In this document: in pieces, positions 11,679-42,957 of the stretch
How positions within the stretch are numbered: position 1 is the first letter of the stretch
How the letters are laid out: every line of letters starts with the position of its first letter
Assembly: GCF_008274585.1 (NCBI RefSeq)
Contig: NZ_VTRT01000004.1
Location: forward strand, 1-64,000
DNA from: Pedobacter sp. BS3
Lineage (GTDB): Bacteria > Bacteroidota > Bacteroidia > Sphingobacteriales > Sphingobacteriaceae
Length of the DNA stretch: 64,000 bases
Direction of reading: 5' to 3'
The notes under the pieces: model-generated
The model's database searches: none
The model's input: only the letters and a program-made list of their open reading frames with translations
Told to the model about the DNA's origin: nothing
Program-made: the position numbers and the translations under genes

Positions 11679-11862
11679 ATACATGGAAGCAATAGCGCTT
11701 TGCCTTATCATGAACCGATGAGCATGACATAGGCTGATCTATAAAACAGGAGCAAGTAATAAAAAACAAAGGGAGCGCTGGCACGCCCCCCTGAACAATT
11801 TGAGCCTGTTTACCTACAAGCAATTAACGGCATAATAAACTTTAACTCAAACAGTCAAATGT

Positions 11863-15489: not shown

Positions 15490-15501
15490 AACTAAAAGAA
15501 A

Positions 15502-16956: not shown

Positions 16957-16981
16957 TTATTAATCGTTAACTTAAATAGTA

Positions 16982-18283: not shown

Positions 18284-18293
18284 ACAGGTTATT

Positions 18294-19610
18294 ATGAAAA
18301 AATTAATATATATCATGCTGGCTCTATTTGGTTTTATAGCCGGCTGCAAAAAAGATGAAGATCCGATATTTGACGACCCGGATACCAGGCTGGCTGCGGC
18401 TCTTGCCGATCACCAGGCAGAACTGCTGTCTGCTTCAAACGGCTGGAAAGCTACTATTTATCCCAAAGGAGGGAAAGGGTTCTTCTATTACTTTAAGTTC
18501 ACGGCCGATGGTAAAGTAACCATGCTTTCTGATTTTAATACCACTACGGCCACTACCCCGAAAGAAAGTACATACCGGTTAAAAGCGCTGCAGCGCCCCA
18601 CCCTGATCTTTGATACCTACAATTATATTCACCTCATTGCCGACCCCGACGCGAATGTGAGCGGCGGAAGCAATGCCACCGGGCTGACCTCCGATTTTGA
18701 ATTTGCCTTTACCGGCAGCTCCGGCGACAGCCTGAAGTTTGAAGGTACGTTTAATAAAAATGCTATGGTAATGGTTAAGCTCAGCAGTGCCGAAGAACAA
18801 AATATTCTTGGTGGAGGGATTAAGAAGATACTGGATGAAAGCACTTTGGCGGTTTCAGGTAAAATACTTTACATTATGCTTAATAACAAGCAGGTGCCCG
18901 TTTCTATGAGCATGACCGGCAAAAGCTTTTCCATTGCCGGGCAATCCAGTTCTCCATTCTCATTTACGCTTGACGGATTAGAATTAAAAACACCTGTTAC
19001 TTATAGTGGTATTACATTCAATAAAGTTTATTGGAATGCAAGCGGTAAATATTTCTATTTGTTAAATGGAACAACGGAAATTAAAATAGAGATATCTCCG
19101 TCGCCATTACCTTTAGATATTACACCTGCCCTGCATACGGTAATAAAAACTCGGTGGACTTCTATGCGAATAAATGTTGCTGATCTTCCGGATCTGTCAG
19201 CAGATTTTATGACCAAGTATAATACAGCAAATGCCAGTCTGGGTACATATCAGAATAATGCCGGCAGATATATTGAGTATATCAATATTCTTTTTAATGC
19301 TGATGGAACGGTTACGTTTGAAATACGTTACAAAAACCCGGCGTCGCCTTCATCTTATTATCTGGCAGATTTTATCTATAACATGACATTGAACACAACG
19401 ACGGGAATTGCCCGATTTACATTAGCCGCGGCACCAACCGGAAATGCCAATACCATTAAGAGTTATGTTACCGCGTTAACAGATTATTTTGCTAATAATG
19501 ATTTCAAGATAGTCTACATCTCTGCTGCCGCCCCGGCCGGTTCAACAGTTGGCGGTTTCTTGAGTCAGAATGATCCATCATCGTTCTTTTACGGTATACT
19601 GTTACAATGA
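18294..19610 (+). CDS. DUF4302-type lipoprotein
   Basis: I chose the ATG at 18294 because it gives a proper lipoprotein signal (MKKLIYIMLALFGFIAGC) just after the upstream stop; an in-frame Met at 18243 would overlap the metallopeptidase gene. The product is 438 residues. The N-terminal half (LAAALADHQAELLSASNGWKATIYPKGGKGFFYYFKF) looks like the DUF4302 family that accompanies Mx1-type metallopeptidases. The C-terminal ~150 residues repeat the domain at the end of the metallopeptidase. It is probably a surface-exposed substrate-binding partner; the function is unknown. Confidence 0.85.
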   Translation: MKKLIYIMLALFGFIAGCKKDEDPIFDDPDTRLAAALADHQAELLSASNGWKATIYPKGGKGFFYYFKFTADGKVTMLSDFNTTTATTPKESTYRLKALQRPTLIFDTYNYIHLIADPDANVSGGSNATGLTSDFEFAFTGSSGDSLKFEGTFNKNAMVMVKLSSAEEQNILGGGIKKILDESTLAVSGKILYIMLNNKQVPVSMSMTGKSFSIAGQSSSPFSFTLDGLELKTPVTYSGITFNKVYWNASGKYFYLLNGTTEIKIEISPSPLPLDITPALHTVIKTRWTSMRINVADLPDLSADFMTKYNTANASLGTYQNNAGRYIEYINILFNADGTVTFEIRYKNPASPSSYYLADFIYNMTLNTTTGIARFTLAAAPTGNANTIKSYVTALTDYFANNDFKIVYISAAAPAGSTVGGFLSQNDPSSFFYGILLQ

Positions 19611-26412: not shown

Positions 26413-29400
26413 ATGAAATTTCAGAGATACCTTTATCGTCTTGCAGCAATTGTTTGTTTATTGTGCCTGTTTGGTGGTAACCTGGCAGCACAGGTGCCCT
26501 TTCCCGGAACGGTAATAGCGCAAAGTCCGGCGCCGTTAACAAACAGCTATGCATCGCCAAGTATAGTCATCCTGCCGGATAGAAGCTATGTAGCTTCGCA
26601 TGATATCAGCGGTACAATTACGGCGATATACCGTTCTGCAGATAGCGGGGCGCACTGGAGCTTCGTTGCCCTGGTATCCGACAGCCACTGGGCGACGCTT
26701 TTTGTGCATAACAACATCCTCTACCTGATGGGCGTTGCAAAATCTTTCGGCAATATCGTTATTCATAAATCGCTTGACGGCGGGTATAGCTGGACAAAAC
26801 CAGACGATGCCAATACGGGGTTGCTGGTATCGGGTAGATTTCATACGGCACCTGTCCCGGTAGTAAGGCACAACGGACGTATATGGCGAGCTTACGAGGA
26901 AAGTCCCGACCCGGATAACGAGCGGGATTTTCACGCTTTTGTGATGTCTGCTCCCGAAGATGCAGATCTGTTAAAAGCCTCCAGCTGGACAAGGACGAAT
27001 ACGGTAGCGTTAAATCCGGCCTGGCTTAACGCGGATATACCCGAATGGTGCGAAGGTAACGTGGTAGTTACTCCCGATGGTAAGATCGTGGATTTCATCC
27101 GCCTGAAGACCGACCAGGCCGTAAACGGAACATTGGAAATGCAGGGGCCGGCTGCCGGTATCCCACGTTACGAGGTGGGTGCCAAAATAGAAATCTCTGA
27201 TGACGGACAAACGGCAGCATTTAATACATCAACCGGTTTTGTTCATTTTCCGGGAGCAATGACCAAGTTTACCATTCGTTATGATCCCGTTTCGGGCAAA
27301 TATTGGTCGTTGGTAAATAAAATCACTACGGTGTTTTCCGGGTGGGGTAACGGCTCAAGCAATGCGCCGTGGAACCAGCGTAATGTACTGATGTTATCCA
27401 GCTCTTCAGACTTGTTGAATTGGGAAGAACGTTATAAAATAATACGCTGGAACGAAGGTGAAATAATAACCCGGCGGGCAAACTTTGGCTTTCAGTATGC
27501 CGACTGGCAGTTTGATGGCAACGATATTGTAGCGGCAGTGCGTACCTCATGGTATGGCGCCGACTGGCACGATGCCAACACCATTACGTTTCACCGGCTT
27601 ACTGATTTTCGTAATTTAACCATGGCCGATTCGCCTGCTGATATAGGCCCGCTGACACAAAGTCCCGGTAATATCCTGTCGTGGCAATTTGGGGTACCGC
27701 AAGCTACGGGTTCTGAAACTTTGGTAAACTCAACGGAAACCAATCCGGGGTTAAATGTTTCGGTGTTATCCCGCGGCAGCGGACTTAATGCGGCCGGTTT
27801 TGTACGTTCGTTTAACTCCACCTGTGGCACGCAGCATAATTCAAAAGATAATGCTATTGCCCGCAACGAATATCTCCAGTTCGAGGTTCAGGCAAAAAGC
27901 GGATACAGCGTATCGCTGGCTACTATTGACGCTAAACTCTCAAGAACTTCAGCCGGGGCGAAGAGCTACCAGTGGGCTTACAGTAAAGACGGCGTTAACT
28001 TTACCGATATCGGTACGGGCCCTGTTTTCAATTTAACAGATACCGATGGCGAAGGCGTTGTGCAGTCTGCCATCCACCTGGAAATGTATAAGGATTTGCA
28101 AAACGTGCCGTCGCCGGTAAAAATTACCTTCCGGATGTATATATGGGGCTCTACCAGCTTGTCGGGGAGATTCTCCGTTGGCCGGTATACTTCCGGCGAT
28201 ACAACGCCCAGCCTGGTTGTCGGCGGAGCTGTGGTGCCGACCCCGGTAAAAGAAACACCGCTGGCGGGTTGGACATTATCAGCAATTACCGGTAATACCA
28301 CGGGCAGCTTAAACGCCGAGGTCAATAGCGGCAATCTGCTTAGCTCAACCTTATCCCGCGGCGGCGGTTTAACGGCAGCCGCACTTAACTACGGCTACTA
28401 TTCCACGCTGAATCCAGGTAACAGCAGTGCGGAGGCTATTGCGAATAATGCTTATTATACATTCAGCATTCAGCCGGCATCAGGGCATTATGTATCCTTA
28501 TCACGGCTCGAAGCCAAATTGCGGCGAAACAGTGCCGGGCCGGTTATTTACCGGTGGTATTACAGTAAAGACGGTGTGAATTTTGCACCCATAGGCGATA
28601 CCGGCGATGTGCCTTTCCTGAGTACAGAGAATAATGGCCTGGTGCAGGCTCCTGTAGATTTATCGTCTATCGCGGAAATGCAGCATGTGGCCTCTACGCA
28701 AAGTATAACCTTTAGATTATATACCTGGGGCGCAGCAACATCAAGCGGGGGCTTTGGTTTTGCACGGTATACGGCTGATGATGATTATTGCCTGGCGGTT
28801 TATGGAACCACTTCGGATGACATTGTTACCGGCTGGAAGTTTGACACGGGTATTAACGGGAAAGAAGTTAGCAGTAACGCGACCACGGTAAATGCCGGAA
28901 TTGAACAACCTGTTTTAACCCGTGGCAATCATGTTGCGGCAACCGAAGGCTCGACGGTATCGTTTGTAGGTAATTTTCCGGTAATGGCTACCAAAAGCGC
29001 TGCCATAGCCGACGGCAATTATTTCCAGTTTGTGCTGAAAGCCAAACCCGGTTTTGCCGTGTCGCTTACATCATTAGATGCCCGTATCCGGATACAGGAA
29101 AATGCTCCGCATCATTACTGCTGGCGGTATAGCCTGGATGGAACAACGTTCAGTGATCTTGGCCCTGCAGATATTACGGCGGCTACAACAGTGAATAATG
29201 GCGAAGCGCAGCCGCAGATCAACCTTTCGGCTTATACAGATCTGCAGAATGTGTCTTCTGATAAAAGTATTACCATCCGGTTATATGCCTGGGGCGGTAC
29301 GGCAACCACCAGCAATTCGTTTGGGATTGGTAAATCATTATCCGGCGCAAATGCGCTGGTTATCGGCGGAACGGTAACAAACGCACTTCCTGTAACGCTA

Positions 29401-29931
29401 TTGTCTTTTACCGGCAGGCCGGAAGGTAAACGGGTAAGACTGGATTGGACAACCGCGTCAGAGCAGAACAATTCTCATTTTGAAGTGCTGCGGAGTAAGG
29501 ATGGTCAGCAATTTTATGCATTGGGAACCGTTGGCGGCCGGGGAACAACAACAAACCTAAGTAAATACAATTATGTAGATAATGATCCGGGTACAGGCAT
29601 AAATTATTACCGGTTAAAACAGGTGGATCTTAACGCCAGCATAAGCTTATCGGATATTGTACCGGTAAAAATGGACTTAGTGGATTATAGCTTTAAAATT
29701 CATGCTGCTGCCGGCGATACACTAACATCGTTTTTTATCAATAGTCCATATACACAGCATGCGGTTATTTCTATAACAGACCTTACGGGAAGGCAATTGG
29801 CCGGTCAGCCTGTTATCCTGCAGCAAGGTAGCACGGTTTTCCGGTGGAATTTGCTGTTATCAGCAGGTGTTTATATCGCCAGGCTTGTACCCATAAATGA
29901 AAAAGCATTGACCGTAAAGTTTGTGAAATAA
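26413..29931 (+). CDS. T9SS-exported sialidase-fold (BNR/Asp-box) protein with three jelly-roll-like modules
   Basis: The product is 1172 residues. After a signal peptide (~1-26), residues ~30-415 look like a six-bladed sialidase-type propeller with Asp boxes (SADSGAHW, SLDGGYSW). SPSIVILPDRS stands where GH33 sialidases have the FRIP motif, so classical sialidase chemistry is doubtful. Three copies of a ~185-residue module follow (about 420-610, 616-801 and 804-990), each running from a W.F strand through YSKDG or YSLDG to a WG-containing strand. The C-terminus (~992-1172) has LPVTLLSFTG and a type A T9SS sorting domain ending GVYIARLVP…VKFVK. It is probably a secreted or surface-anchored glycan-active enzyme; the substrate is unknown. 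Confidence 0.85.
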   Translation: MKFQRYLYRLAAIVCLLCLFGGNLAAQVPFPGTVIAQSPAPLTNSYASPSIVILPDRSYVASHDISGTITAIYRSADSGAHWSFVALVSDSHWATLFVHNNILYLMGVAKSFGNIVIHKSLDGGYSWTKPDDANTGLLVSGRFHTAPVPVVRHNGRIWRAYEESPDPDNERDFHAFVMSAPEDADLLKASSWTRTNTVALNPAWLNADIPEWCEGNVVVTPDGKIVDFIRLKTDQAVNGTLEMQGPAAGIPRYEVGAKIEISDDGQTAAFNTSTGFVHFPGAMTKFTIRYDPVSGKYWSLVNKITTVFSGWGNGSSNAPWNQRNVLMLSSSSDLLNWEERYKIIRWNEGEIITRRANFGFQYADWQFDGNDIVAAVRTSWYGADWHDANTITFHRLTDFRNLTMADSPADIGPLTQSPGNILSWQFGVPQATGSETLVNSTETNPGLNVSVLSRGSGLNAAGFVRSFNSTCGTQHNSKDNAIARNEYLQFEVQAKSGYSVSLATIDAKLSRTSAGAKSYQWAYSKDGVNFTDIGTGPVFNLTDTDGEGVVQSAIHLEMYKDLQNVPSPVKITFRMYIWGSTSLSGRFSVGRYTSGDTTPSLVVGGAVVPTPVKETPLAGWTLSAITGNTTGSLNAEVNSGNLLSSTLSRGGGLTAAALNYGYYSTLNPGNSSAEAIANNAYYTFSIQPASGHYVSLSRLEAKLRRNSAGPVIYRWYYSKDGVNFAPIGDTGDVPFLSTENNGLVQAPVDLSSIAEMQHVASTQSITFRLYTWGAATSSGGFGFARYTADDDYCLAVYGTTSDDIVTGWKFDTGINGKEVSSNATTVNAGIEQPVLTRGNHVAATEGSTVSFVGNFPVMATKSAAIADGNYFQFVLKAKPGFAVSLTSLDARIRIQENAPHHYCWRYSLDGTTFSDLGPADITAATTVNNGEAQPQINLSAYTDLQNVSSDKSITIRLYAWGGTATTSNSFGIGKSLSGANALVIGGTVTNALPVTLLSFTGRPEGKRVRLDWTTASEQNNSHFEVLRSKDGQQFYALGTVGGRGTTTNLSKYNYVDNDPGTGINYYRLKQVDLNASISLSDIVPVKMDLVDYSFKIHAAAGDTLTSFFINSPYTQHAVISITDLTGRQLAGQPVILQQGSTVFRWNLLLSAGVYIARLVPINEKALTVKFVK

Positions 29932-29968
29932 AACATATCCCAAACACGCATATACAAACACCCAATAC

Positions 29969-30036
29969 TATGATAATATCCTACAAAAATTAGGTAATAA
30001 TCGCCAATATATGGGTTAAAAAGCGCCGTAATTTTA
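29969..30036 (+). promoter_or_regulatory. Shared operator-like site B plus -7 box (module/SusC operon)
   Basis: TATGATAATATCCTACAAAA begins at 29969 and continues ATTAGGTAATAA. The -7 box TAATTTTA is at 30029-30036, 60 bases from the start of the site. The leader to the ATG at 30157 is about 115 bases. It would drive the module genes and probably SusC/SusD behind them. Confidence 0.75.
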
Positions 30037-30156
30037 GATAACCAATTATCAGGAATACTAACGCTTTACCTGGAGATAGGTTATGATTTAAGTGTTTTCA
30101 AGGCAGATGTATAACATCCTGGTAAGAAAGAGTTAACCAATTAAACTAAACGAAAT

Positions 30157-30810
30157 ATGAAGCCGGTTTATTATTATGTTTTTGCCTTAATTGTTTCTGT
30201 ATGTTTAACTAATGAGGGTTTCGGGCAGATAGTTGCCTGGCAATTCGCCTTGCCGGAACCATCTACAGGAAGAGAGAAAACGGCAGCAGCCACCACCAAT
30301 CATGCCAATTTAGAACAGTCGGTTTTAAGTCGTGGTCCGGGCGCCGTGCCCAAGCAGGGAAATCTACGCGGTTTTAGCGGTAATTTCCCGGTAAATGCTG
30401 ATCAGGAAGCTGCAAAAATCTCGGGAGCTTATTACCAGTTTACAGTCAAAGCCAAACCGGGGTACCAGGTATCGCTGAGTTCGCTCGAAGCTACCTTACG
30501 GCGCCAGGCAGAATCGGCACATATCTACCGTTGGATGTACAGCCTGGATGGCAAGACATTCAAGGAAATTGGCGATCAGGATATTACCATTACCGATTTA
30601 ACGAATAATGGAGTGAAGCAACCTGCAATCAGTTTAACAGGATATAACGATCTGCAGCATGTTTCGTCTTCAAAAACAATTACGTTCAGAATATACGCAT
30701 GGGGCGGTACTGCGACCGAGGGCAGTGCCAGGGCTTTTGGTTTTGGTAAATCAGATAGCAAAGGCAGTAATGCCCTGGCACTTGATGGAACGGTAAGCCC
30801 GGTTAAATAA
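30157..30810 (+). CDS. Secreted single-module protein of the locus-specific jelly-roll-like family
   Basis: The 217-residue product consists of a signal peptide (~1-24) and one copy of the module found three times in the gene upstream. It is closest to that protein's third copy: GNFPV, YYQFTVKAKPGYQVSLSSLEA, RWMYSLDGKTF, LQHVSSSKTITFRIYAWGGTAT and GFGKS all have counterparts there. It has no T9SS sorting domain and no catalytic motif, so it may remain periplasmic or bind a ligand. It is first in the operon behind operator B, 49 bases before the next module gene. Confidence 0.75.
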   Translation: MKPVYYYVFALIVSVCLTNEGFGQIVAWQFALPEPSTGREKTAAATTNHANLEQSVLSRGPGAVPKQGNLRGFSGNFPVNADQEAAKISGAYYQFTVKAKPGYQVSLSSLEATLRRQAESAHIYRWMYSLDGKTFKEIGDQDITITDLTNNGVKQPAISLTGYNDLQHVSSSKTITFRIYAWGGTATEGSARAFGFGKSDSKGSNALALDGTVSPVK

Positions 30811-30859
30811 AAGCAGGCTTTTTATAAACTGATTAATAAAATACTTAAAACGAAAGATT

Positions 30860-32128
30860 ATGAAAAAGATTTACTTTATTACAATGGCACTCATTGCAGG
30901 GTTAAGCAATGCCCTCAGTGCGCAAGATTTATTAGCTGGCTGGAGTTTTAGAAATCCAACCGTTTTTACGGGGAAGGAAACGGAAGCAACCGCAAATAGC
31001 AGTACCGGTACCACGTTTCAAACTCAGCCAAAAATAACCTTTGGGCCAAATCTAACTACTGCCGGTACGGGTAATTCTGGTGGTTTTGGAGGGGATATAA
31101 GCAGTGCAGGAACAATACCAACTACATTTGCCCAGGCGGTTAGTACAGGTACTTATTATGAAATCATATTACAGCCAAAAACCGGGACAACGGTTTCCTT
31201 AGGTACTCTTGATTTTAGAATCAGGCGAGAATTCAACAAATCGCCAAATATGTATGTCTGGACATATAGTATAAATAATACAGATGCAGCATCTTTCCTG
31301 GCGAATAAATTGCATACTGAAAAAGATATATCTAATGAATATTATAATCAGGTAAGTGGGGATGCCTCAAATAACGGTGTTATCCAAACAACAGTAGCAT
31401 TAACCGGGCTAACTAACCTTACATCGACCTCTACTGTATATTTACGTTTGTATTTTTGGAATACATTAGACTTGACAGGTATTACCACATCAACAGCGAA
31501 AGGCTATAATTTTGCTTTGGGTAAAACAACAACAGCTACAGAAGGCAATTATGAAGCACTTAATATAAAAGGTACCACCACCCTCCCCGTAAAACTCACC
31601 TCCTTTACTGCTCAAAAAGAATTAAACGGGGTGAAATTAAACTGGCAAACCGCATCAGAAGAAAATAATTCTCATTTCGAAATTTACAGGTCAGGAAATG
31701 GTAAGCCTGATGAATTATTAGGAACCGTAAAAGGTAATGGTACAAGCTCATCGGTTAATGTCTATCATTTTACAGATTATGCACCTCTGGCAGGCACAAA
31801 TTATTACCAGTTACGCCAGGTAGATGCAGATGGTAAGTACGAAGAATCAGCTATCCTGCCTGTAAATACATCCTTACAGGGAAATGTCCTGAAAGTATAT
31901 GCAGGGGCAAGCGGATCGGAAGTGAAAATATGGGTTACACAGGCAGATGCAGGCAAAAGCGAATTGCAGATAACCGATCTGTCTGGGCGCAGCATCTACA
32001 AACAAGCGGTTGATCTGCATGCGGGGGAAAACCTGTTCAGTGTACCATTTAACAGTAACAAAGGAATTTATGTGGTTTCTCTCATTTCCGGTAAAGGAGA
32101 GCATTTGAATACAAAATTTATGAGGTGA
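30860..32128 (+). CDS. T9SS-exported protein with one jelly-roll-like module
   Basis: A 422-residue protein. The signal peptide (~1-21) is followed by a diverged copy of the module (~24-240, LLAGWSFRNP…VSLGTLDFRIRREFNKSPNMYVWTYSIN…TVYLRLYFWN). Residues ~243-335 form an FnIII-like linker (LPVKLTSFTAQKELNGVKLNWQTASEENNSHFEI) close to the one in the sialidase-fold protein. The C-terminal ~80 residues are a type A T9SS sorting domain (LQITDLSGRSIY…GIYVVSLISG). It is likely exported and attached to the surface as a glycan-binding or adhesin-like partner. Binding is inferred. Confidence 0.8.
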   Translation: MKKIYFITMALIAGLSNALSAQDLLAGWSFRNPTVFTGKETEATANSSTGTTFQTQPKITFGPNLTTAGTGNSGGFGGDISSAGTIPTTFAQAVSTGTYYEIILQPKTGTTVSLGTLDFRIRREFNKSPNMYVWTYSINNTDAASFLANKLHTEKDISNEYYNQVSGDASNNGVIQTTVALTGLTNLTSTSTVYLRLYFWNTLDLTGITTSTAKGYNFALGKTTTATEGNYEALNIKGTTTLPVKLTSFTAQKELNGVKLNWQTASEENNSHFEIYRSGNGKPDELLGTVKGNGTSSSVNVYHFTDYAPLAGTNYYQLRQVDADGKYEESAILPVNTSLQGNVLKVYAGASGSEVKIWVTQADAGKSELQITDLSGRSIYKQAVDLHAGENLFSVPFNSNKGIYVVSLISGKGEHLNTKFMR

Positions 32129-32280: not shown

Positions 32281-35200
32281 ATGCAGGTAAAAAACAAAGT
32301 ACAGGCTGCTATATTGCTGTTACTGTTCATATTACCCCATTTTACGGTACAGGCACAGCAGGCGGGCCGTAAGCTGGTAAGTGGTATTGTAGTAGACAGC
32401 GAGGACAACGAGCCTCTTATAGGAGCGCACATTCGTGTCAGAGGAGACGAAAAAAGAGCGGCAGTTACGGATAAAGATGGCAAATTCAGCATCCGGGCCG
32501 CCAATACGGAAGTATTGATCTTTAATTATGTGGGTTATAATTCCCGGCAAATATCGGTCAGCAATCTTACAGGTACTATAAAACTGACATCCAGTACAAC
32601 CGCATTGAAAGAAGTGGTTGTTATAGGCTACGGTACGGTAAACAAAAAGGATTTTACAGGCTCGCTTTCGGAGGTAAAGGTAGAAGATATCAACAAAGCA
32701 CCTGTACCCAATATTGCCCAGGCTCTCGCCGGCAGGGTAGCCGGTTTACAGGTAAATGCCTTGTCGGGGCAACCCGGAGAAGAATCGGATATTGTCATCA
32801 GGGGAGGCAATTCTATTACCCAGGATAACTCGCCTCTTTATGTCGTGGACGGATTTCCTATAGAAGGATTTAGCCTTTCATCTATTAACCCCGAAGAAAT
32901 TGAAGATTTCAGGATACTGAAAGATGCTTCCGCGACCTCTATTTACGGTAGCAGAGCTGCGAACGGTGTTATTATTATTGAGACAAAAAAGGGGAAAGAA
33001 GGACTTCCTACTGTTACCTACAATATGAACCTGAGCCTGCAACAGGCTAACAAGTTCATGGATATGATGAACCCTTATGAATTTGTCAAATACCAGCTGG
33101 AATTAGATCCGGCAGATGCACAAACAATCTATTTAGATAAACCGGGCCGTACGTTGGACGATTACAAGAGTATACCAGGGCACGATTGGCAGGATATGCT
33201 GTTCAGAACGGCGCTCATGCACAATCATAACCTGTCCTTAAGAGGAGGAAGTAAATCAACTAAATATGCCTTTTCAGGTAACGTGATTAACCAGGACGGG
33301 GTTATCATTAATTCCGGTTTTGCCAGATACCAGGGACGGGCAAGGGTTGACCAGGAAATTAATAAGAATTTAAAGGTTAATTTGAATCTGAGTTACTCAA
33401 AAGATAAAAATTATGGCCAGTTAACTAATCAGCAGGCATCCGGCAATAACTCTTATGCTACATACATCATGTACAGAACCTGGGGTTACAGACCGGTATC
33501 TACCTCCGGAGACCTGACCGATATGTTGTTTGACGATGATGAGGAAGGAAGTGAGACACTGCTTGTTATGAACCCCATTATTTCAACCAAAAATGAATTC
33601 AGGCAGCAGAATCGGACATTTTTTACCGGTAACCTGGGCATTGATTATACGTTGCCCTGGAACCTGAAACTGAATATCAGGGGTGGTTACACCTCAAGGA
33701 TGACGAGAGACGAATCTTTTAACAATTCCAATACCTATAGGGGATACCCTTCGGCGAATAATGCAAACGGCGTAAACGGTGGATTTTCTGAAAAGACAGT
33801 GGTAGACTGGATGAATGAAAACACTCTTACGTACACTAAAAAATTTAATAAAAATCATCAATTAGATGCTTTGATGGGTATTACCGTGCAGGGGCAGAAC
33901 TCAGATCAATACGGCTTTACATCTATCCAGATTCCCAATGAGGAATTGGGAATCAGGGCATTGAGTTCGGGTTATATCAAAGATCCTATCTCTCTCGCCT
34001 CAGCCAATATGCTTTTATCTTACCTGGCCCGCGTAAACTATAATTACCGGGGAAAATACCTGTTGACTGCAAATTTCAGAACAGATGGCTCATCAAAGTT
34101 TGCTCCGCAGAACAGGTGGGGATATTTTCCGTCGTTTGCCGCGGCTTGGAGGTTAGGTAAGGAGGAGTTTTTTAAGAACATCCCTTTTATCAGCGATTCC
34201 AAGCTTAGGGCAAGCTGGGGAGCTACCGGTAATAACCGCGTAAACGATCTGGTTACTTCTGATATAGTGACACTGGGTGATTATTACGGTATCGGCACAG
34301 GAAGCGCTATTCCCGATTTTGCACTTATCATGTCGAATTTTGGAAATAAAGATCTGAAATGGGAAACTACTTATCAGTTGGATGTTGGTTATGAGTTGTC
34401 GTTATTTAAAAGCAGGTTAAACTTTGTTTTCGATTACTATAATAAAGACACCAAAGACCTATTGCTGTATTCAAATGCGCCTTATACCAGCGGATATGCA
34501 AAAATATACAGGAATGTAGGTTCTATCCGCAACAGAGGTTTCGAAGTGGAGATCAACTCGGTAAATATCAATACCAAAAACTTTAAATGGAGCTCTAATT
34601 TTAATATCTCATTTAACAAAAATACCGTATTGGGCTTAACAGACGACGAAAAAACGATGTTCTCTAACCCGGCCTTTACAGCAACCTGGAACTCATCCAA
34701 TCTTTACATTACACAGGTTGGTATGCCGGTTTCATCATTTTATGGCCTGATATGGGATGGCGTGTACCAGCTATCAGACTTTGATCAATTGTCAAATGGT
34801 AATCGTGTGCTTAAAGATGGCGTAGTGTCCCTGTACGAAGACAGAAATCTTACCCAACCGGGCGATATTAAGTATAGGGATATTAATGGCGATGGTATCA
34901 TTGATGATAAAGATAAAATTGTTATGGGGCGTACCCTGCCCATACATTATGGCGGTTTCAATAATAATTTCCAGTATAAAAATATCAGCCTGAATGTGTT
35001 TTTCCAATGGAATTATGGAAATGATATCATGAACGCCAACCGTTTGATGTTTGAAGGTAACAGTACGGGAAGAATAGCCTTGAATCAGTTTGCGTCTTAC
35101 ACAGACAGGTGGACAGTAGATAACCCTTCCAACGAACAGTTCAGAACACGTGGATATGGGCCAGCAGGTTATTTTTCAACCAAACAGTTAGAAGATGGGT

Positions 35201-35433
35201 CATATCTTCGTCTCAAGACCGTTGAATTGACCTATCGTCTGCCTAAAAAATGGTTGGGCAAAATATCGGGTATTGATTTGAGTGTAGCCGCTCAAAACCT
35301 GTATACCTGGAGCAAGTATTCGGGATTGGATCCGGAGGTGTCCACACGGAACTCTATATTGACACCGGGCTTCGATTATTCGGCTTATGCCCAGAATTTC
35401 ACCATTGCTTTTGGAGCTAAGGTTGTTTTCTAA
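32281..35433 (+). CDS. SusC/RagA family TonB-linked outer-membrane transporter
   Basis: A 1050-residue transporter: signal peptide (~1-27), carboxypeptidase-regulatory-like domain (~35-110), a plug with DNSPLYVVDGFPIEG and ILKDASATSIYGSRAANGVIIIETKKG (~120-240), then the barrel ending in FTIAFGAKVVF. Unlike the SusC at 11863 it has no STN domain, which agrees with the absence of a sigma/anti-sigma pair here. SusD follows 20 bases downstream. In context it would import oligosaccharides released by the exported proteins of this locus. Confidence 0.95.
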   Translation: MQVKNKVQAAILLLLFILPHFTVQAQQAGRKLVSGIVVDSEDNEPLIGAHIRVRGDEKRAAVTDKDGKFSIRAANTEVLIFNYVGYNSRQISVSNLTGTIKLTSSTTALKEVVVIGYGTVNKKDFTGSLSEVKVEDINKAPVPNIAQALAGRVAGLQVNALSGQPGEESDIVIRGGNSITQDNSPLYVVDGFPIEGFSLSSINPEEIEDFRILKDASATSIYGSRAANGVIIIETKKGKEGLPTVTYNMNLSLQQANKFMDMMNPYEFVKYQLELDPADAQTIYLDKPGRTLDDYKSIPGHDWQDMLFRTALMHNHNLSLRGGSKSTKYAFSGNVINQDGVIINSGFARYQGRARVDQEINKNLKVNLNLSYSKDKNYGQLTNQQASGNNSYATYIMYRTWGYRPVSTSGDLTDMLFDDDEEGSETLLVMNPIISTKNEFRQQNRTFFTGNLGIDYTLPWNLKLNIRGGYTSRMTRDESFNNSNTYRGYPSANNANGVNGGFSEKTVVDWMNENTLTYTKKFNKNHQLDALMGITVQGQNSDQYGFTSIQIPNEELGIRALSSGYIKDPISLASANMLLSYLARVNYNYRGKYLLTANFRTDGSSKFAPQNRWGYFPSFAAAWRLGKEEFFKNIPFISDSKLRASWGATGNNRVNDLVTSDIVTLGDYYGIGTGSAIPDFALIMSNFGNKDLKWETTYQLDVGYELSLFKSRLNFVFDYYNKDTKDLLLYSNAPYTSGYAKIYRNVGSIRNRGFEVEINSVNINTKNFKWSSNFNISFNKNTVLGLTDDEKTMFSNPAFTATWNSSNLYITQVGMPVSSFYGLIWDGVYQLSDFDQLSNGNRVLKDGVVSLYEDRNLTQPGDIKYRDINGDGIIDDKDKIVMGRTLPIHYGGFNNNFQYKNISLNVFFQWNYGNDIMNANRLMFEGNSTGRIALNQFASYTDRWTVDNPSNEQFRTRGYGPAGYFSTKQLEDGSYLRLKTVELTYRLPKKWLGKISGIDLSVAAQNLYTWSKYSGLDPEVSTRNSILTPGFDYSAYAQNFTIAFGAKVVF

Positions 35434-35453
35434 ATATCTAAATAGGTACAGAA

Positions 35454-37055
35454 ATGAAAAATATATTTAAAAAAATAGCCATAATAGGGAGTCTTTTTTT
35501 AACAGCCTCCTGCAACGATATTTTGGACGTAAATCCTTCCAAATACGTGATGGAGAAAGATACGTACTACAGTACGGAAGCCGAACTGAATTACGCCTTA
35601 AATGGTGTTTACGCGGCATTGGCAGATGGTAACCTGTATGGCAATAATATGCTGGGCAGAATGGGACTTGAAGCCGACGAGGCTTATGAAGATTACAGCT
35701 CGGATGAAAATTCCGTGGGCGATTACAACGTGGAGTCTACAGAACCCAAGATACAGAATTACTGGCGATCATGTTATACCGGTATTGACCGGGCCAATAA
35801 TTTGCTGGCTAATGTAGATAACGCTGATATTGCTATTGATAATAGTAAACGTGATGACATCAGAGGGCAGGCATTATTCCTGCGTGCTTATTATTATTTG
35901 ATGCTGGTCACCCGTTTTCAGGGCGTTCCCATAATTTTAAAGCCAATTGCAAATGCGAATGCAGCAGAGCTGCAGCAACCACGGGCCACAGGGAGGGAAG
36001 TGTATGCCCAGATTCTGGAAGATATGGAAAAAGCGGCAGCCTGGGTAAAGCCGGCCAGTCAGGTAGGTACAGGCGGACGCGTTTCTAAATCTGCTGTATG
36101 GGGGCTGTTGGCCAGGGTAAACCTGTACCTGGCCGGATATCCCTACAATGAACAGGAGCGTTATAAAGATGCGATGGTATATGCAGGCCGGGTTATTGAT
36201 GAGCATTTTCATGCGCTGAACCCTTCGTATCAGCAGGTTTTTATCAATTACGCCCAGGATAAATATGATATCCGCGAAAGTATTTTCGAAGTAGAATTCT
36301 TTAGTGATGGTACAGGAGTATATCCTGCATCCGGTATGGTAGGAAGAAATAACGGGATAAGAAATCCCGTTATTGATGATGTTATTGGCTATGCCCAGGG
36401 TGTTTTGCGGTCTACAGATTACCTGTATGGTTTGTATTCCGCTTCAGATGTGCGGAGAGATTGGAATGTGGCGCCGTTCTACTACGTAAATAATAATGAT
36501 GTTGCAACCGTTACAAATTGGGGAGCTACAGATTCGAAATATCAGCGGTTTTGTGGGAAATTCAGAAGAGAATACGAAACCGTTCTGCCAAAGCTGCAAT
36601 CGCAAACCCCTCAAAACTTCCCGATCTTACGGTATTCAGATGTACTGCTGATGTATGCCGAAGCGTATAACGAATATTTTAAAGGTGCTGATAATAATGC
36701 GCTGGAATACCTGAATATGGTAAAAAGAAGAGGACTTGGATTAAATCCGACAACGGCAAGTCCAGGCACAGACTTTACAGATAGAAGTTATACCGCTTTT
36801 CAACGGGAGGTTAGAGAAGAAAGACCTCGTGAATTATGCTTCGAAATGCTTCGGAAAAATGATGTGGTTCGTTGGAATGTGTTTTACGATAATATGGTTG
36901 TACGGGAAGCGGAGACACCTCAAACCTTTACCTCTTCATACTATGTCAGGGCAAGAAGATATTTCAGGAGTGTAGAGCCTAAAGATATGTGGTGGCCAAT
37001 TCCTTCGTATGAAATGGGAGTTAACAAAAAATTAGTTCAAAATCAGGGATGGTAA
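35454..37055 (+). CDS. SusD/RagB family glycan-binding outer-membrane lipoprotein
   Basis: A 533-residue lipoprotein (signal ending in FLTASC). It shows the SusD fold landmarks: the N-terminal YYSTEAELNYALNGVYAAL helix, YWRSCYTGIDRANNLLANV, ALFLRAYYYLMLVTRFQGVPII, then RYSDVLLMYAEAYNEY and EERPRELCFEMLRKNDVVRW near the C-terminus. It is the lid partner of the SusC encoded just upstream. The two DUF5017 lipoproteins downstream probably complete the surface complex in place of SusE/SusF. Confidence 0.94.
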   Translation: MKNIFKKIAIIGSLFLTASCNDILDVNPSKYVMEKDTYYSTEAELNYALNGVYAALADGNLYGNNMLGRMGLEADEAYEDYSSDENSVGDYNVESTEPKIQNYWRSCYTGIDRANNLLANVDNADIAIDNSKRDDIRGQALFLRAYYYLMLVTRFQGVPIILKPIANANAAELQQPRATGREVYAQILEDMEKAAAWVKPASQVGTGGRVSKSAVWGLLARVNLYLAGYPYNEQERYKDAMVYAGRVIDEHFHALNPSYQQVFINYAQDKYDIRESIFEVEFFSDGTGVYPASGMVGRNNGIRNPVIDDVIGYAQGVLRSTDYLYGLYSASDVRRDWNVAPFYYVNNNDVATVTNWGATDSKYQRFCGKFRREYETVLPKLQSQTPQNFPILRYSDVLLMYAEAYNEYFKGADNNALEYLNMVKRRGLGLNPTTASPGTDFTDRSYTAFQREVREERPRELCFEMLRKNDVVRWNVFYDNMVVREAETPQTFTSSYYVRARRYFRSVEPKDMWWPIPSYEMGVNKKLVQNQGW

Positions 37056-37152: not shown

Positions 37153-38082
37153 ATGAAAAAGTATTTAACAGTTGTAAGCATGTTGCTTACCATGGCTGCA
37201 TGTAAAGATCCTTACGAAGTAACAGAGCCCGTTTTCAATGTATCCACAGAGCAGACGGTTTATGCGGTAGGCGAAAGGATCAAATTCACGATAGAAGGCA
37301 GTCCGGATATGATCAACTTCTATTCGGGCAGTAATGGCAACGATTATGCCTATCATGATAAAGAGCGCATTTATGATATTGTGCCCAAGCTGAGTTTCAG
37401 AGCGGCAAAGTTTGCAGGAAATAATAGCGATTGCGCCGAATTGCTGTACACAACCGATTTTGACGGAAATTATACCTATGATAACGTTAAAGCGGTAAAC
37501 TGGATCAATATATCAAACAGGTTTACTATTCCGCCTATTGTGGGTACGGCCGCTTCTTTTTCTGATGCAGGCACTGCAGATATTTCTGACTTAGTAGTAG
37601 AAGGAAAACCGATCTGTTTTGCCTGGCATTGCAAAACCAATGAAGCTTCGCAGCGTACCAGATTCCAGGTTACAGATTTTAATGTAAACGGTGAGAACCA
37701 GAACGATAGTGATCTTTCAGGCGTGTTATATTCCCAGGCTCAGCTTAGTTTTCAATGGGTTTTAAACGCAGATGCAGCAAATCAGGCATCCAACAAACCC
37801 AGCGTTACAAACACATTGGTTTATTGGGATGGAATATTCGACAATACGGCAGGTCCTTTAAAAGAGGGATATGCGGTTAGCGCTCCCGTTACTATCTCCG
37901 ATCAGATAAACTTAGGGCTTGATAAACCCCAGGTTATTAAAAGTATACAAAACGAAAACATGACCGAATTTTATTACACGTTTGATAAAGCCGGGGAATA
38001 TGAAGTAGCCTTTGTTGGATACAATGTAAACTACAAAGGAAAGAAGGAAGCCGTTAAAAAAATAAAGCTAACCATTCAGTAA
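37153..38082 (+). CDS. DUF5017 family lipoprotein, copy 1
   Basis: The 309-residue product has a short lipoprotein signal (…MLLTMAAC). The body matches the DUF5017 pattern: VYAVGERIKFTIEGSPDMINFYSGSNGNDYAY, followed by DCAELLYTTDFDGNY, FAWHC and a C-terminal GEYEVAFVGYNV PKD-like strand. It is probably a surface glycan-binding protein in the SusE/SusF position. It is a tandem paralogue of the next gene, 8 bases away; the two align along nearly their whole length. No catalytic residues can be assigned. Confidence 0.85.
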   Translation: MKKYLTVVSMLLTMAACKDPYEVTEPVFNVSTEQTVYAVGERIKFTIEGSPDMINFYSGSNGNDYAYHDKERIYDIVPKLSFRAAKFAGNNSDCAELLYTTDFDGNYTYDNVKAVNWINISNRFTIPPIVGTAASFSDAGTADISDLVVEGKPICFAWHCKTNEASQRTRFQVTDFNVNGENQNDSDLSGVLYSQAQLSFQWVLNADAANQASNKPSVTNTLVYWDGIFDNTAGPLKEGYAVSAPVTISDQINLGLDKPQVIKSIQNENMTEFYYTFDKAGEYEVAFVGYNVNYKGKKEAVKKIKLTIQ

Positions 38083-38090
38083 AAGCTATT

Positions 38091-39107
38091 ATGAAAGATC
38101 TTATAAAAATATACCTCATTGCGGGGCTATGCGTATCAGCTATGGTAGCCTCATGTAATAAAGATCCGGAAGGAGTTATGGATCGTCCTAAGATCGATGT
38201 TGAAGATCCAACCAGCCAGGGGCCGATGAGCTTTGATGTGCGGGTAGATGAAAGCAGCACGTTAAAAGTAGGTGATACCGTTAAATTTATCATGGAAGGT
38301 AACCCGGATATGGTTAGTTTCTATTCAGGAGCCATTGGTAATGATTATGCTTATAAAGATACAGAGCGTTTTTATGATATTGTCGCCAATCTGAGCTTTA
38401 GGTCAGGGAAAGCCCCTAACAATAATACGGAAGCTAACTGGGATTGCGCCCAGTTGGTATACTCTACGGATTTCAATGGAGACCGAAGCAGCGGGAATGC
38501 GTACACTAACGTACAAGCAGCAACATGGACAAATATTACAAACCGCTTCGCTTTGCCAACTGTACCAGGTGACATCGCTAATTATGTAAATTCAGGTGCG
38601 GGGGATATATCCGATATTTTTGCAGCAGGAAAACCGGTTTATTTAGCCTGGCACTGTACTACACAAGCGGCTTCTAACAGGGTACAGTTCAGAGTTATCG
38701 AATCCAGTATTCAAGGTATTGTGATAGGCAATAGCTCTTTATCCAGGGAGTTGTATACACAGAGCCAGCTGGGCTTTCAATGGGTAGAGAATCCGGCATC
38801 AGCAGCACAGGCAAGTAACAGGCCTACTGTTTCCTCTACGCAGGTAATGTGGAATGGCATATTCAATAACCTGACCGGTCCATTTAAAGAAGGCTATGCC
38901 ATCAGCGGGCCTTTAACGTTGCCTCAGTTCAACGCCGGGAAGGATATGCCAACGGTTATTATCACCAAACAAAATAAAAATGCGCTGGTGCACAAATTTG
39001 TTTATAGCAAAGCTGGTAACTACGAGGTTGTCTTTATTGCTGCCAACACTCATGTCAATGAGCAACCGGAGATCATTAAGAAGCTCAATATAACCATTAC
39101 ACCATAA
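38091..39107 (+). CDS. DUF5017 family lipoprotein, copy 2
   Basis: A 338-residue paralogue of the preceding gene product, with its own lipoprotein signal (…AMVASC) and a longer N-terminal linker. The shared blocks are VKFIMEGNPDMVSFYSGAIGNDYAY, DCAQLVYSTDFNGD, LAWHC, LGFQWV, GPFKEGYAISGP and NYEVVFIAAN. The arrangement suggests a tandem duplication followed by divergence, perhaps to bind different parts of the same ligand. It is the last gene of the operon; hairpins at 39122-39172 follow. Confidence 0.85.
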   Translation: MKDLIKIYLIAGLCVSAMVASCNKDPEGVMDRPKIDVEDPTSQGPMSFDVRVDESSTLKVGDTVKFIMEGNPDMVSFYSGAIGNDYAYKDTERFYDIVANLSFRSGKAPNNNTEANWDCAQLVYSTDFNGDRSSGNAYTNVQAATWTNITNRFALPTVPGDIANYVNSGAGDISDIFAAGKPVYLAWHCTTQAASNRVQFRVIESSIQGIVIGNSSLSRELYTQSQLGFQWVENPASAAQASNRPTVSSTQVMWNGIFNNLTGPFKEGYAISGPLTLPQFNAGKDMPTVIITKQNKNALVHKFVYSKAGNYEVVFIAANTHVNEQPEIIKKLNITITP

Positions 39108-39339: not shown

Positions 39340-40776
39340 ATGAAGCCCAGAATCAGTTTATTGTTAGTATTAATTGCAGCTTTTTCCATCCGTGTACAGG
39401 CTAACGTTACGTTGCCGGCCATATTTTCTGATGGTATGGTTTTACAGCAACAGTCAGATGTGGCCCTGTGGGGTAAATCCGACGCCGGTAAATCCGTAAC
39501 CGTCACCACATCATGGAATAACAAAACGTACCAGGTCAATCCTGCTAAGGGCGGCAGGTGGAAGGTAAAAGTTAAAACTCCGGCCGCAGGTGGCCCTTAT
39601 ACTGTCCGTATCAGCGATGGCAGTGAGATCGTGTTATCCGACGTTTTGATTGGTGAGGTATGGCTGGCATCCGGCCAGTCCAATATGGAAATGCCCTTAA
39701 AAGGCTTTAAGAATCAGCCGGTAGCCAATTCAGAGCAAGTGATCAGCGCATCAGAAAATCCGCAGATCCGTTTTTTCAATGTAGAGAATGTGAGCTGGAA
39801 AAAGCCGCTTACCGGTTGCCAGGGCTCCTGGAAAAAGGCTTCGCCTGCTAACACGTCCAATTTTAGTGCAACAGCTTATTTCTACGCAAAGGCACTGCAG
39901 GAAAAATTAAAGGTTCCTGTTGGTATTGTAGAATCCGACTGGGGCGGAACCCGCGTACAGGCCTGGATGAGTGCCGATGCGTTAAAAGCATTTCCAGAAG
40001 TTAAGGTAGCGGCAGAAGCTAATACAGCCTTTAAAGATAAAAATGAGGCTACCGGTCTGTTTAACGGGATGATCAATCCTATCCTCGGTTATGGCATTAA
40101 AGGCGCTATCTGGTACCAGGGAGAGCAGAACAGGAACGAGCCTGAATTATACGGCCGGCTGTTTCCGTCTATGGTGAAACAGTGGCGTCAGGATTGGGGA
40201 ATTGGTAAATTTCCGTTCTATTATGTACAGATTGCACCTTACATTTCGGGTACTGCAACCTTGTCGGCATCGCTTAAAAAACTGGAACCTTTTGTACCTG
40301 TTTTACGCGAAGCACAGTTACAGGCAGAAAATAAAATCCCCAATTCAGGTATGGCGGTGTTAACCGATATAGGTGCGCAAAATACCATCCACCCGCCCGA
40401 TAAAGAAAGCGTCGGCAAACGCTTGTCTTACCTGGCGCTGGCTAAAACCTATGGTCAGAAGGATGTAGCCTATTCAGGACCAGTATACAAAAAAATGAAA
40501 ATTGAAGGGAACAGTATCCTGTTAAAGTTTGATCATGCAGAAGGATTAAAATTCAATAATGGTCAGTCCGGTAACTTTGAAGTAGCCGGTAGCGATAAGG
40601 TGTTTCATCCTGCCAAAGCTGAGATCACCAAAGATGGTATTAAAGTGTCATCGGCACAGGTTAATAAACCGGTAGCAGCCCGCTATGCCTTTAAAGCATG
40701 GGTAAAAGGCGATTTATTTAATCAGGATGGTTTGCCGGCATCGTCGTTCAGAACGGATAGCTGGCCGGTAAAATAA
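39340..40776 (+). CDS. Sialate O-acetylesterase family carbohydrate esterase
   Basis: A 478-residue exported enzyme of the SASA/SGNH group that would remove O-acetyl groups from sugars. The signal peptide covers ~1-21. The catalytic Ser114 lies in WLASGQSNME. The second conserved block is WYQGEQNRNEPELY, and the Asp/His pair is in DIGAQNTIHPPDKESVGKRL. Enzymes of this family act on several acetylated glycans besides sialic acid, so the name does not prove the substrate. It has its own copy of the locus operator (site C), which ties it to the sialidase-fold and SusC units. Confidence 0.92.
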   Translation: MKPRISLLLVLIAAFSIRVQANVTLPAIFSDGMVLQQQSDVALWGKSDAGKSVTVTTSWNNKTYQVNPAKGGRWKVKVKTPAAGGPYTVRISDGSEIVLSDVLIGEVWLASGQSNMEMPLKGFKNQPVANSEQVISASENPQIRFFNVENVSWKKPLTGCQGSWKKASPANTSNFSATAYFYAKALQEKLKVPVGIVESDWGGTRVQAWMSADALKAFPEVKVAAEANTAFKDKNEATGLFNGMINPILGYGIKGAIWYQGEQNRNEPELYGRLFPSMVKQWRQDWGIGKFPFYYVQIAPYISGTATLSASLKKLEPFVPVLREAQLQAENKIPNSGMAVLTDIGAQNTIHPPDKESVGKRLSYLALAKTYGQKDVAYSGPVYKKMKIEGNSILLKFDHAEGLKFNNGQSGNFEVAGSDKVFHPAKAEITKDGIKVSSAQVNKPVAARYAFKAWVKGDLFNQDGLPASSFRTDSWPVK

Positions 40777-40950: not shown

Positions 40951-42957
40951 ATGAAACAAAACCGTCATAATAAATTTCTACTTCTGTCAGGCGTTGTATT
41001 GCTTACGTTATCGGCATTTAATTTACAGCGGGATAATCCTGTAAAAAAAGCAGATGAAAAGCCGGATTTTAAACTGTTAAAATACAATAATCCCGGCCTG
41101 GTAGTTGATTTAGGTGTAGGATTATGGGGCTGGCCCATTCCGCTTGATTATGATAACGATGGCGATATGGATTTGCTGGTTTCCAGTCAGGGAAAGCCAT
41201 ACAATGGAGTTTACCTGTTTGAAAATACCAGTGGCGATGCTAACCCGGTATTTGCCAAACCCGTATGGCTGGCCAAGTCGGTAAAAGACATCCAGGTATC
41301 ATACATTAATGAAAAGCCCCGTATAACAGTTCCAGGGGCCGAGTTGCTTAATTTCACTAAAAGTTTCGGTAAAGAAAAGAAGGAGCTGTTTCCGGCAGAT
41401 TCTATTTTGAAAGATATCAAAGGAAGAAACCGTTTTAACCAGTGGAAACTGGTGGATTATGACGATGATGGTGATGTGGATATTGTTGTGGGGGTTGACG
41501 ACTGGAACGATTACGGCTGGGATAACGCCTATAACGCGAAAGGAGAGTGGATTAACGGGCCGCTTCATGGATACGTTTACCTGATTGAGAACCAGAATGG
41601 AAAATATGTCAACAAAGGCCGTATCCAGGTTGAAGGTAAAGATCTGGATGTTTTTGGAGCGCCTACCCCCAATCTGGCAGATTTTGACGGTGATGGTGAC
41701 TTAGATCTGGTGTGCGGCGAGTTCCTGGATAAGCTGACTTACTTTGAGAATACCGGCACGCGGGAGAAGCCGGTATATGCTAAGGGCCGTTACCTGGAAA
41801 ATGAATCGGGCATCATTAAGATGGATCTGGAGATGATCGTTCCGGTAGCCGTAGACTGGAATAAGGATGGATATGTTGATTTAGTGGTAGGTGACGAGGA
41901 TGGTCGTGTTGCATTGATTGAAAATACAGGGAAAGTGAAAAACGGTATGCCGGTATTTAAGTCGCCGGCGTATTTCAGGCAGCAGGCCGGTGATGTAAAG
42001 TTTGGTGCTTTGGTAACACCCTATAGTGTTGACTGGGATAACGATGGTGATGAAGACCTCATCTGCGGCAATTCGGCAGGCTACATCGGTTTTATTGAAA
42101 ATCTGGGTATGAATGGCGATATGCCTAAATGGGCCGCTCCAAAATTGCTGGAGGTTAATGGTAAGCCCATCCGGATACAGGCAGGGAGTAATGCATCTAT
42201 TCAGGGGCCGGCAGAAGCGAAATGGGGATATACTACTTTGTCGGTAGCAGATTGGGACGGAGACGGATTGAAAGATATTGTGATTAATTCGATATGGGGT
42301 AAGGTAGAATGGTATAAAAACATCGGTACAAAGAAAGTGCCTAAGCTGGCGGATGCGGCTCCTGTAAAAGTGGATTGGGAAAAAATGAATCCGCCAAAGC
42401 CGGAATGGATTTGGTGGACACCCAAGCCCAATACCTTATCTCCCGAATGGCGCACTACACCTTATGTGATCGACTGGAATAAAGATGGCCTTGCAGATTT
42501 GGTTATGCTGGACCATGAAGGTTATCTGTGCTATTTTGAACGGTTTAAAAAAGGAGCTGAGCTTTGGCTGAAACCGGGTAAACGGATTTTCTATGGAACA
42601 GACTATAGCGGCTACGATGGCAACCATGCCGTAAAAGACAGCCTTCCCGGGTTGCTGCGCATGAATGTAAATAAATATGGCGCCAGCGGCCGGCGTAAAT
42701 TCTGCATTACCGATTGGGATGGCGATGGTAAGCTGGATATACTGGTAAATAGCAAAAATGTAACCTTAATGAAAAATACCGGGACTAAAAATGGATCAGT
42801 GCAACTTGAAAATAAAGGTCTGTTGGGTAAGCTGATACTGGCCGGTCACGATACCAGCCCTACAGCGGTAGACTGGAATAAAGATGGCATCCCGGATCTG
42901 CTGGTAGGAGCGGAAGACGGGTATCTGTATTATTTGCCGAATGGAAGGAAAAAATAA
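40951..42957 (+). CDS. Exported FG-GAP/VCBS repeat beta-propeller protein
   Basis: A 668-residue protein with a signal-like N-terminus (~1-27). It contains nine calcium-binding-type repeats of the form DxDxDGxxDL: DYDNDGDMDL, DYDDDGDVDI, DFDGDGDLDL, DWNKDGYVDL, DWDNDGDEDL, DWDGDGLKDI, DWNKDGLADL, DWDGDGKLDI and DWNKDGIPDL. Many are followed by a YFENTG or LIENTG-type strand, giving propeller blades. No enzyme motif is recognisable, so it could bind or cut a polysaccharide. It is the last gene of the glycan-related locus and ends in a strong terminator. Confidence 0.88.
   Translation: MKQNRHNKFLLLSGVVLLTLSAFNLQRDNPVKKADEKPDFKLLKYNNPGLVVDLGVGLWGWPIPLDYDNDGDMDLLVSSQGKPYNGVYLFENTSGDANPVFAKPVWLAKSVKDIQVSYINEKPRITVPGAELLNFTKSFGKEKKELFPADSILKDIKGRNRFNQWKLVDYDDDGDVDIVVGVDDWNDYGWDNAYNAKGEWINGPLHGYVYLIENQNGKYVNKGRIQVEGKDLDVFGAPTPNLADFDGDGDLDLVCGEFLDKLTYFENTGTREKPVYAKGRYLENESGIIKMDLEMIVPVAVDWNKDGYVDLVVGDEDGRVALIENTGKVKNGMPVFKSPAYFRQQAGDVKFGALVTPYSVDWDNDGDEDLICGNSAGYIGFIENLGMNGDMPKWAAPKLLEVNGKPIRIQAGSNASIQGPAEAKWGYTTLSVADWDGDGLKDIVINSIWGKVEWYKNIGTKKVPKLADAAPVKVDWEKMNPPKPEWIWWTPKPNTLSPEWRTTPYVIDWNKDGLADLVMLDHEGYLCYFERFKKGAELWLKPGKRIFYGTDYSGYDGNHAVKDSLPGLLRMNVNKYGASGRRKFCITDWDGDGKLDILVNSKNVTLMKNTGTKNGSVQLENKGLLGKLILAGHDTSPTAVDWNKDGIPDLLVGAEDGYLYYLPNGRKK

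Follow-up and report, generated by a model that had tools for sequence, protein, structure and literature searches.

What is the domain of about 185 residues that recurs five times in three adjacent + strand genes (26413-32128) of the 64,000-nucleotide stretch of Pedobacter sp. BS3 DNA analysed here (the window), and what might its copies do? The first-pass annotation had described three tandem copies in a protein with a sialidase fold, a fourth copy alone in the next protein and a diverged fifth joined to a T9SS domain, and this arrangement is borne out (Table 1).

Five modules in three adjacent proteins

Table 1. Module proteins, modules and downstream genes of the locus, in window coordinates.
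Feature	Position	Strand	Composition, location or basis
Protein 1, 1172 aa	26413..29931	+	signal peptide, predicted sialidase-fold propeller (aa ~26-416), M1-M3, fn3-like linker, T9SS tail
Module M1	27673..28239	+	protein 1 aa 421-609; 8e-74 against profile A3
Module M2	28261..28815	+	protein 1 aa 617-801
Module M3	28825..29382	+	protein 1 aa 805-990
Protein 2, 217 aa	30157..30810	+	signal peptide and single module M4, nothing more
Module M4	within 30157..30810	+	protein 2 aa 25-217
Protein 3, 422 aa	30860..32128	+	signal peptide, M5, fn3-like linker, T9SS type A tail
Diverged module M5	30929 to about 31582-31585	+	protein 3 aa 24-242
SusC-like TonB-dependent transporter	32281..35433	+	BLAST cluster shared with the second SusC of the window
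SusD-like lipoprotein	35454..37055	+	sequence and gene order; cluster adjoins SusC in 15 loci
Two DUF5017 surface proteins	37153..39107	+	Pfam PF16409, 131 and 124 bits
SASA-family esterase, putative sialate or other glycan O-acetylesterase	39340..40776	+	Pfam PF03629, 60.5 bits
FG-GAP repeat protein	40951..42957	+	Pfam FG-GAP_3, 116 bits; cluster present in 15 loci

The five copies can be aligned over their full length and all ten pairs are found by BLASTP (E-values from about 1e-60 to 2e-9), which confirms the earlier claim that they are homologous. M3 and M4 share 51% identity and M1 and M2 43%; M4 is 32-51% identical to the other four copies, and M5 is the outlier (26-34%). The limits given previously for the array are correct, with M1 starting at 27673 and M5 ending at about 31582, and the landmark motifs are present in the modules. 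The signal peptides and fn3-like linkers of the three proteins were assigned by reading the sequence. The C-terminal type A sorting domain of protein 3 passes the TIGR04183 model (26.4 against a cut-off of 23) and the tail of protein 1 falls just under it (20.7); neither a lipobox nor a T9SS tail was found in protein 2. In one-module proteins as a group the signal peptide ends in an AQ/GQ-type site, and lipobox and T9SS tail are likewise missing, which, from what is known of such signals, suggests that these proteins are soluble and perhaps periplasmic.

The model of the N-terminal domain of protein 1 is all-beta (pLDDT 85) and matches the P. gingivalis sialidase, other GH33 sialidases and GH93 arabinanases (TM about 0.6). 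The domain contains the Asp-box motifs SADSGAHW and SLDGGYSW and has a BNR_2 match of 24.3 bits, under the cut-off. As modelled, it is a sialidase-superfamily propeller, and the predicted fold supports the sialidase-fold label that it had been given. The FRIP arginine of the GH33 arginine triad is absent, however, with all nine homologues reading (A/G)SP(S/A)I at this position and protein 1 itself ASPSI (motif placed by eye), and the name sialidase is therefore not justified.

Relation to known families and predicted fold

No family exceeds its cut-off on the modules in hmmscan searches of Pfam (three proteins and 76 modules) or NCBIfam (three proteins), so the description of the module as unnamed stands, and no solved structure is matched by the protein sequence or by a five-row profile. 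A literature search found no paper on this module, the DUF5689 and DUF5017 papers being concerned only with transformation and a porin. With a 15-row profile the PDB sequences give insignificant matches only, and a profile of 76 modules has one match below E 1, the B. thetaiotaomicron CBM32 7blg (E 0.018), in an alignment spanning the stretch with a YSxDG hairpin. Similarly, F5/8 type C (PF00754) is the sole recurrent sub-threshold Pfam match (17 of the 76 modules, best E 5e-4), every other family matching at most three. By profile score, membership of PF00754 is rejected, all modules scanned lying under its cut-off; M1-M3 of protein 1 sum to 25.7 bits against the 28.2 bits of the gathering threshold. 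Against about 20 genuine F5/8C domains from Bacteroidota genomes, profile-profile comparison yields a weak match over 51 columns with a probability of 7.6%, compared with 0.1-0.4% for unrelated controls.

An AlphaFold2 model of M4, built from an alignment with the other four copies, is mainly beta (pLDDT 88, pTM 0.88). Only two Foldseek matches in the PDB fall below E 1e-3, both of them C-terminal domains of Bacteroides chitobiases and one carrying F5/8 type in its title; further matches include a PNGase C-terminal domain, IFT25, CBM32, CBM15, CBM4, CBM22, CBM28, discoidin and factor VIII domains. We take these to be mostly galactose-binding-like folds. Because TM-scores to the solved galactose-binding-like domains are low (0.3-0.5), the assignment of the module to a galactose-binding-like beta-sandwich is moderate and not firm; within that limit the structure prediction agrees with the jelly-roll-like fold proposed earlier. 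The best explanation of the profile and fold comparisons is that the modules form a family of their own, distantly related to F5/8C/CBM32.

Across 76 modules from many genomes the near-invariant positions are L33, R35, G36, Y68, R91, W102, Y104, S105, R154, Y156, W158 and G173, with K/R174 joining R35, R91, R154 and S105 as the polar set and Y68, W102, Y104, Y156 and W158 as the aromatic one. Along the strand 151-158, positions 151, 153, 155 and 157 carry hydrophobic residues and vary more, and this alternation suggests that they face the core and that R154, Y156 and W158 lie on the opposite face.

Distribution, descent and gene neighbourhood

The module is patchily distributed, being present in six of 60 relatives at E 1e-10 (the window's genome counted among the six) and in 17 of 395 Bacteroidota genomes at E 1e-15. 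A scan of genome contigs with an alignment of six closer rows found 71 loci, mainly in Sphingobacteriaceae, Flavobacteriaceae and Bacteroidales, together with a few in Patescibacteria and one Verrucomicrobia MAG, for which MAG binning may be at fault. The strong modules number 109, in 76 proteins of 47 loci, a count that takes in three loci of the window's genome; more than one module protein is encoded in 16 of the 47, and both tandem arrangement and T9SS tails are frequent. The window's genome alone has 13 strong copies at three places (five here, five on contig C3 and three on contig C21), each adjoined by SusC and SusD genes. The earlier view of a single cluster was thus right as to the cluster and too narrow as to its extent. 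The C3 and C21 loci (L016:8103-13498 and L017:8627-12454) are Sus loci that include DUF5689-module lipoproteins and a BNR_2-module lipoprotein. At L017:7308-7742 (- strand) lies a 144-aa ORF corresponding to positions 1-51 of the 225 of PF03372 (EEP nuclease), which looks truncated or frameshifted, and a close module copy (L098, G372:C3:748852-749403) contains one in-frame TGA, perhaps because the gene is decaying or the sequence has an error.

In a tree of 108 modules, M1 clusters with the first modules of orthologous proteins (support 100/98) and M2 with second modules or their counterparts, both being placed with positional equivalents from other genomes, and the sister of M3 is a module of P. 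arcticus (98/89). M4 belongs to a clade of one-module proteins from Pedobacter, Nubsella and a Porphyromonadaceae MAG, together with a module fused to a SASA esterase (L029; 91/99). It is 71% identical to its Pedobacter arcticus relative as against 51% to M3, and M4-type single-module proteins hold a conserved gene position in other genera. Constraint (AU) tests on a quick tree of 50 rows reject the union of M3 and M4 (a cost of 88 log-likelihood units, p-AU 1.6e-8) as well as that of all five window modules (p-AU 0.001). The suggestion that M4 arose from M3 by duplication within the window is therefore rejected, and the tree and the AU tests together indicate that the copies had already diverged when these genera separated and did not arise here. 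Local duplication is seen elsewhere, the two modules of L016:10095-11822 being sisters (100/93), as are the pair in L037 (100/98).

The SusC-SusD pair of the window (32281-37055), in which SusD is recognised by similarity and gene order, lies on the same strand as the three module genes and adjoins them, and its members fall into the BLAST clusters that contain the SusC and SusD genes of many loci; the second SusC of the window (11863-15489) has Pfam Plug and CarbopepD_reg_2 domains. The SASA esterase matches PDB entries 9h4u, 9ega and 7kmm, each with an E-value of 1e-84 or better, and its homologue in L029 is fused to the module. In scans for promoters and terminators the counts were near the shuffled expectation. 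SusC or SusD is within reach in 25 of the 47 loci (a raw count). In a gene set that recurs, SusC and SusD are joined by DUF5017 or a DUF5689-module lipoprotein, by a protein of 207-242 aa with a single module, by a T9SS protein carrying one module or two, and by sialidase-fold and FG-GAP proteins, a SASA esterase being present in some cases. The module is also fused to enzyme domains, namely a BNR_2 propeller (L016), a SASA esterase (L029), an EEP-like domain (L041) and a PLD-like domain (L056). Neighbours in some loci include an SSF symporter, DHDPS-family aldolases, GH20, FGGY and 2-keto-3-deoxygalactonate (DGOK) kinases, GDPD and a nucleoside hydrolase, the last two in L037 and L043.

The locus was also considered as a sialic-acid PUL, to which the sialidase-fold protein, the SASA esterase, a DHDPS-family aldolase and an SSF symporter would be suited; this reading was set aside, given the missing FRIP arginine, the equally good match of the propeller to GH93 arabinanases, and aldolases that score far below the NanA cut-off.

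In L056, L058 and L062 (8210-11137), a gene located 3' of SusC, SusD and a DUF5689-cluster protein encodes a PLD-like domain (by Pfam on L056), two modules and a C-terminal tail, and its substrate is possibly a phosphodiester. The 1202-aa T9SS protein at L018:5368-8976 (- strand) has diverged module-like repeats at its N-terminus and a middle part that by eye resembles a pectate-lyase-type beta-helix, with no Pfam match there. A second Sus-type locus in the window (10479-19610) encodes FecR, SusC, SusD, a Peptidase_Mx1 zinc metallopeptidase and DUF4302, and is devoid of the module.

Function and likeness to known systems

Our preferred reading, held with moderate confidence, is that the modules are a new galactose-binding-like, glycan-binding family holding substrate in a T9SS/Sus-type glycan locus. 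The module is probably non-catalytic, extracellular and glycan-binding, and the binding role that had been ascribed to it is kept as the best inference from the fold, the varied enzyme partners and the lack of a catalytic set. The partners of the module range from sialidase-fold propellers and a SASA esterase to DUF5689 lipoproteins and phosphodiesterase-like domains, a variety that points to an accessory binding module. Besides glycan binding, we infer an active propeller enzyme and the following order of localisation, deacetylation and import: the type IX system would carry protein 1 to the cell surface, where M1-M3 would hold polymer close to its sialidase-fold domain; protein 3 would be a binding protein displayed on the surface, and protein 2 a soluble single module that might be periplasmic; and the SASA esterase would trim acetyl groups off the released pieces, which SusC/SusD would import.

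A glycan ligand is not assured, because Sus genes are out of reach in about half of the loci, and the module there is usually the leading domain of large surface proteins (800-3500 aa, most with T9SS tails, some with fn3, BACON, Calx-beta or InlB-type repeats, and Patescibacteria MAG contigs included). Such proteins would suit a general surface-attachment or spacer module, used for adhesion or structural spacing and not tied to glycans, but we consider this unlikely, as in Sphingobacteriaceae and related genomes the module recurs within Sus loci and in direct fusions to enzymes, and a spacer role does not readily account for a one-module protein that stands alone. Binding of phosphodiester or nucleic-acid polymers (extracellular DNA, teichoic-type) in place of neutral or sialylated glycans is decidedly improbable: the fusions to EEP nuclease-like and PLD-like domains, the GDPD and nucleoside-hydrolase genes and the four near-invariant basic residues speak for it, as does the requirement for a DUF5689/DUF5017 protein, encoded beside a TonB-receptor-like gene, in natural transformation of Riemerella anatipestifer (PMC8459023), whereas the window locus combines a sialidase-fold protein with a SASA esterase and has no nuclease among its scanned genes, and the majority of enzyme partners seen are of carbohydrate type.

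Galactosidase activity has been reported for SusE-like proteins bearing a CBM32-like domain (PMC8211771), so that the modules could conceivably be enzymes, a novel hydrolase or esterase with a jelly-roll fold. Yet no Glu, His or Cys is conserved across the 76 modules, which argues against catalysis and agrees with the first-pass observation that no catalytic residues repeat; the sole conserved acid, D107, sits in the YSxDG hairpin that is found in F5/8C domains too, and the tandem repeats lie alongside a propeller domain. We regard catalytic modules as very improbable. With the modules taken as glycan-binding, a more specific proposal is that they are a new CBM family binding acidic sugars (nonulosonic or other keto-deoxy acids) through the conserved arginines and the Y/W strand, with the stand-alone soluble form working between the surface and the transporter as a carrier or scavenger; this we think doubtful, an acidic sugar as ligand being a guess.

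The finding is of a sizeable new unnamed family of a familiar extracellular module type and not of a new type of system. At least 109 copies in 47 loci, 13 of them in one genome, are yet without a Pfam or NCBIfam entry, and a name for the family would allow many T9SS and Sus-locus proteins to be annotated in part; protein 2, with its single module in 217 residues, is a handy test piece for the ligand, and hence for the substrate of a recurrent glycan locus.

Among known systems, the module loci resemble Sus-type PULs with SusE/F-like glycan-binding proteins in their SusC, SusD, DUF5017/DUF5689 surface proteins and enzymes, and in the sigma/anti-sigma genes of some of them, but differ in that most binding modules belong to T9SS cargo or soluble proteins and fewer to lipoproteins, and in that the module is repeated, with several copies per locus. 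The joining of a sialidase-fold propeller to beta-sandwich modules recalls the multimodular sialidases with CBM32 or lectin-like domains, although the GH33 FRIP arginine is absent and the profile searches do not place the modules in CBM32. To F5/8 type C/discoidin domains (PF00754), including CBM32, the module is likened by its predicted beta-sandwich, YSxDG hairpin, secreted context and fusion to glycan enzymes, and F5/8C-type domains are among its best fold matches; it differs in being longer (about 185 aa against a 127-position model), in scoring below the Pfam cut-off, in having little profile similarity outside one 50-column stretch, and in its own conserved set of LSRG, RLYAWG and FxIGK.
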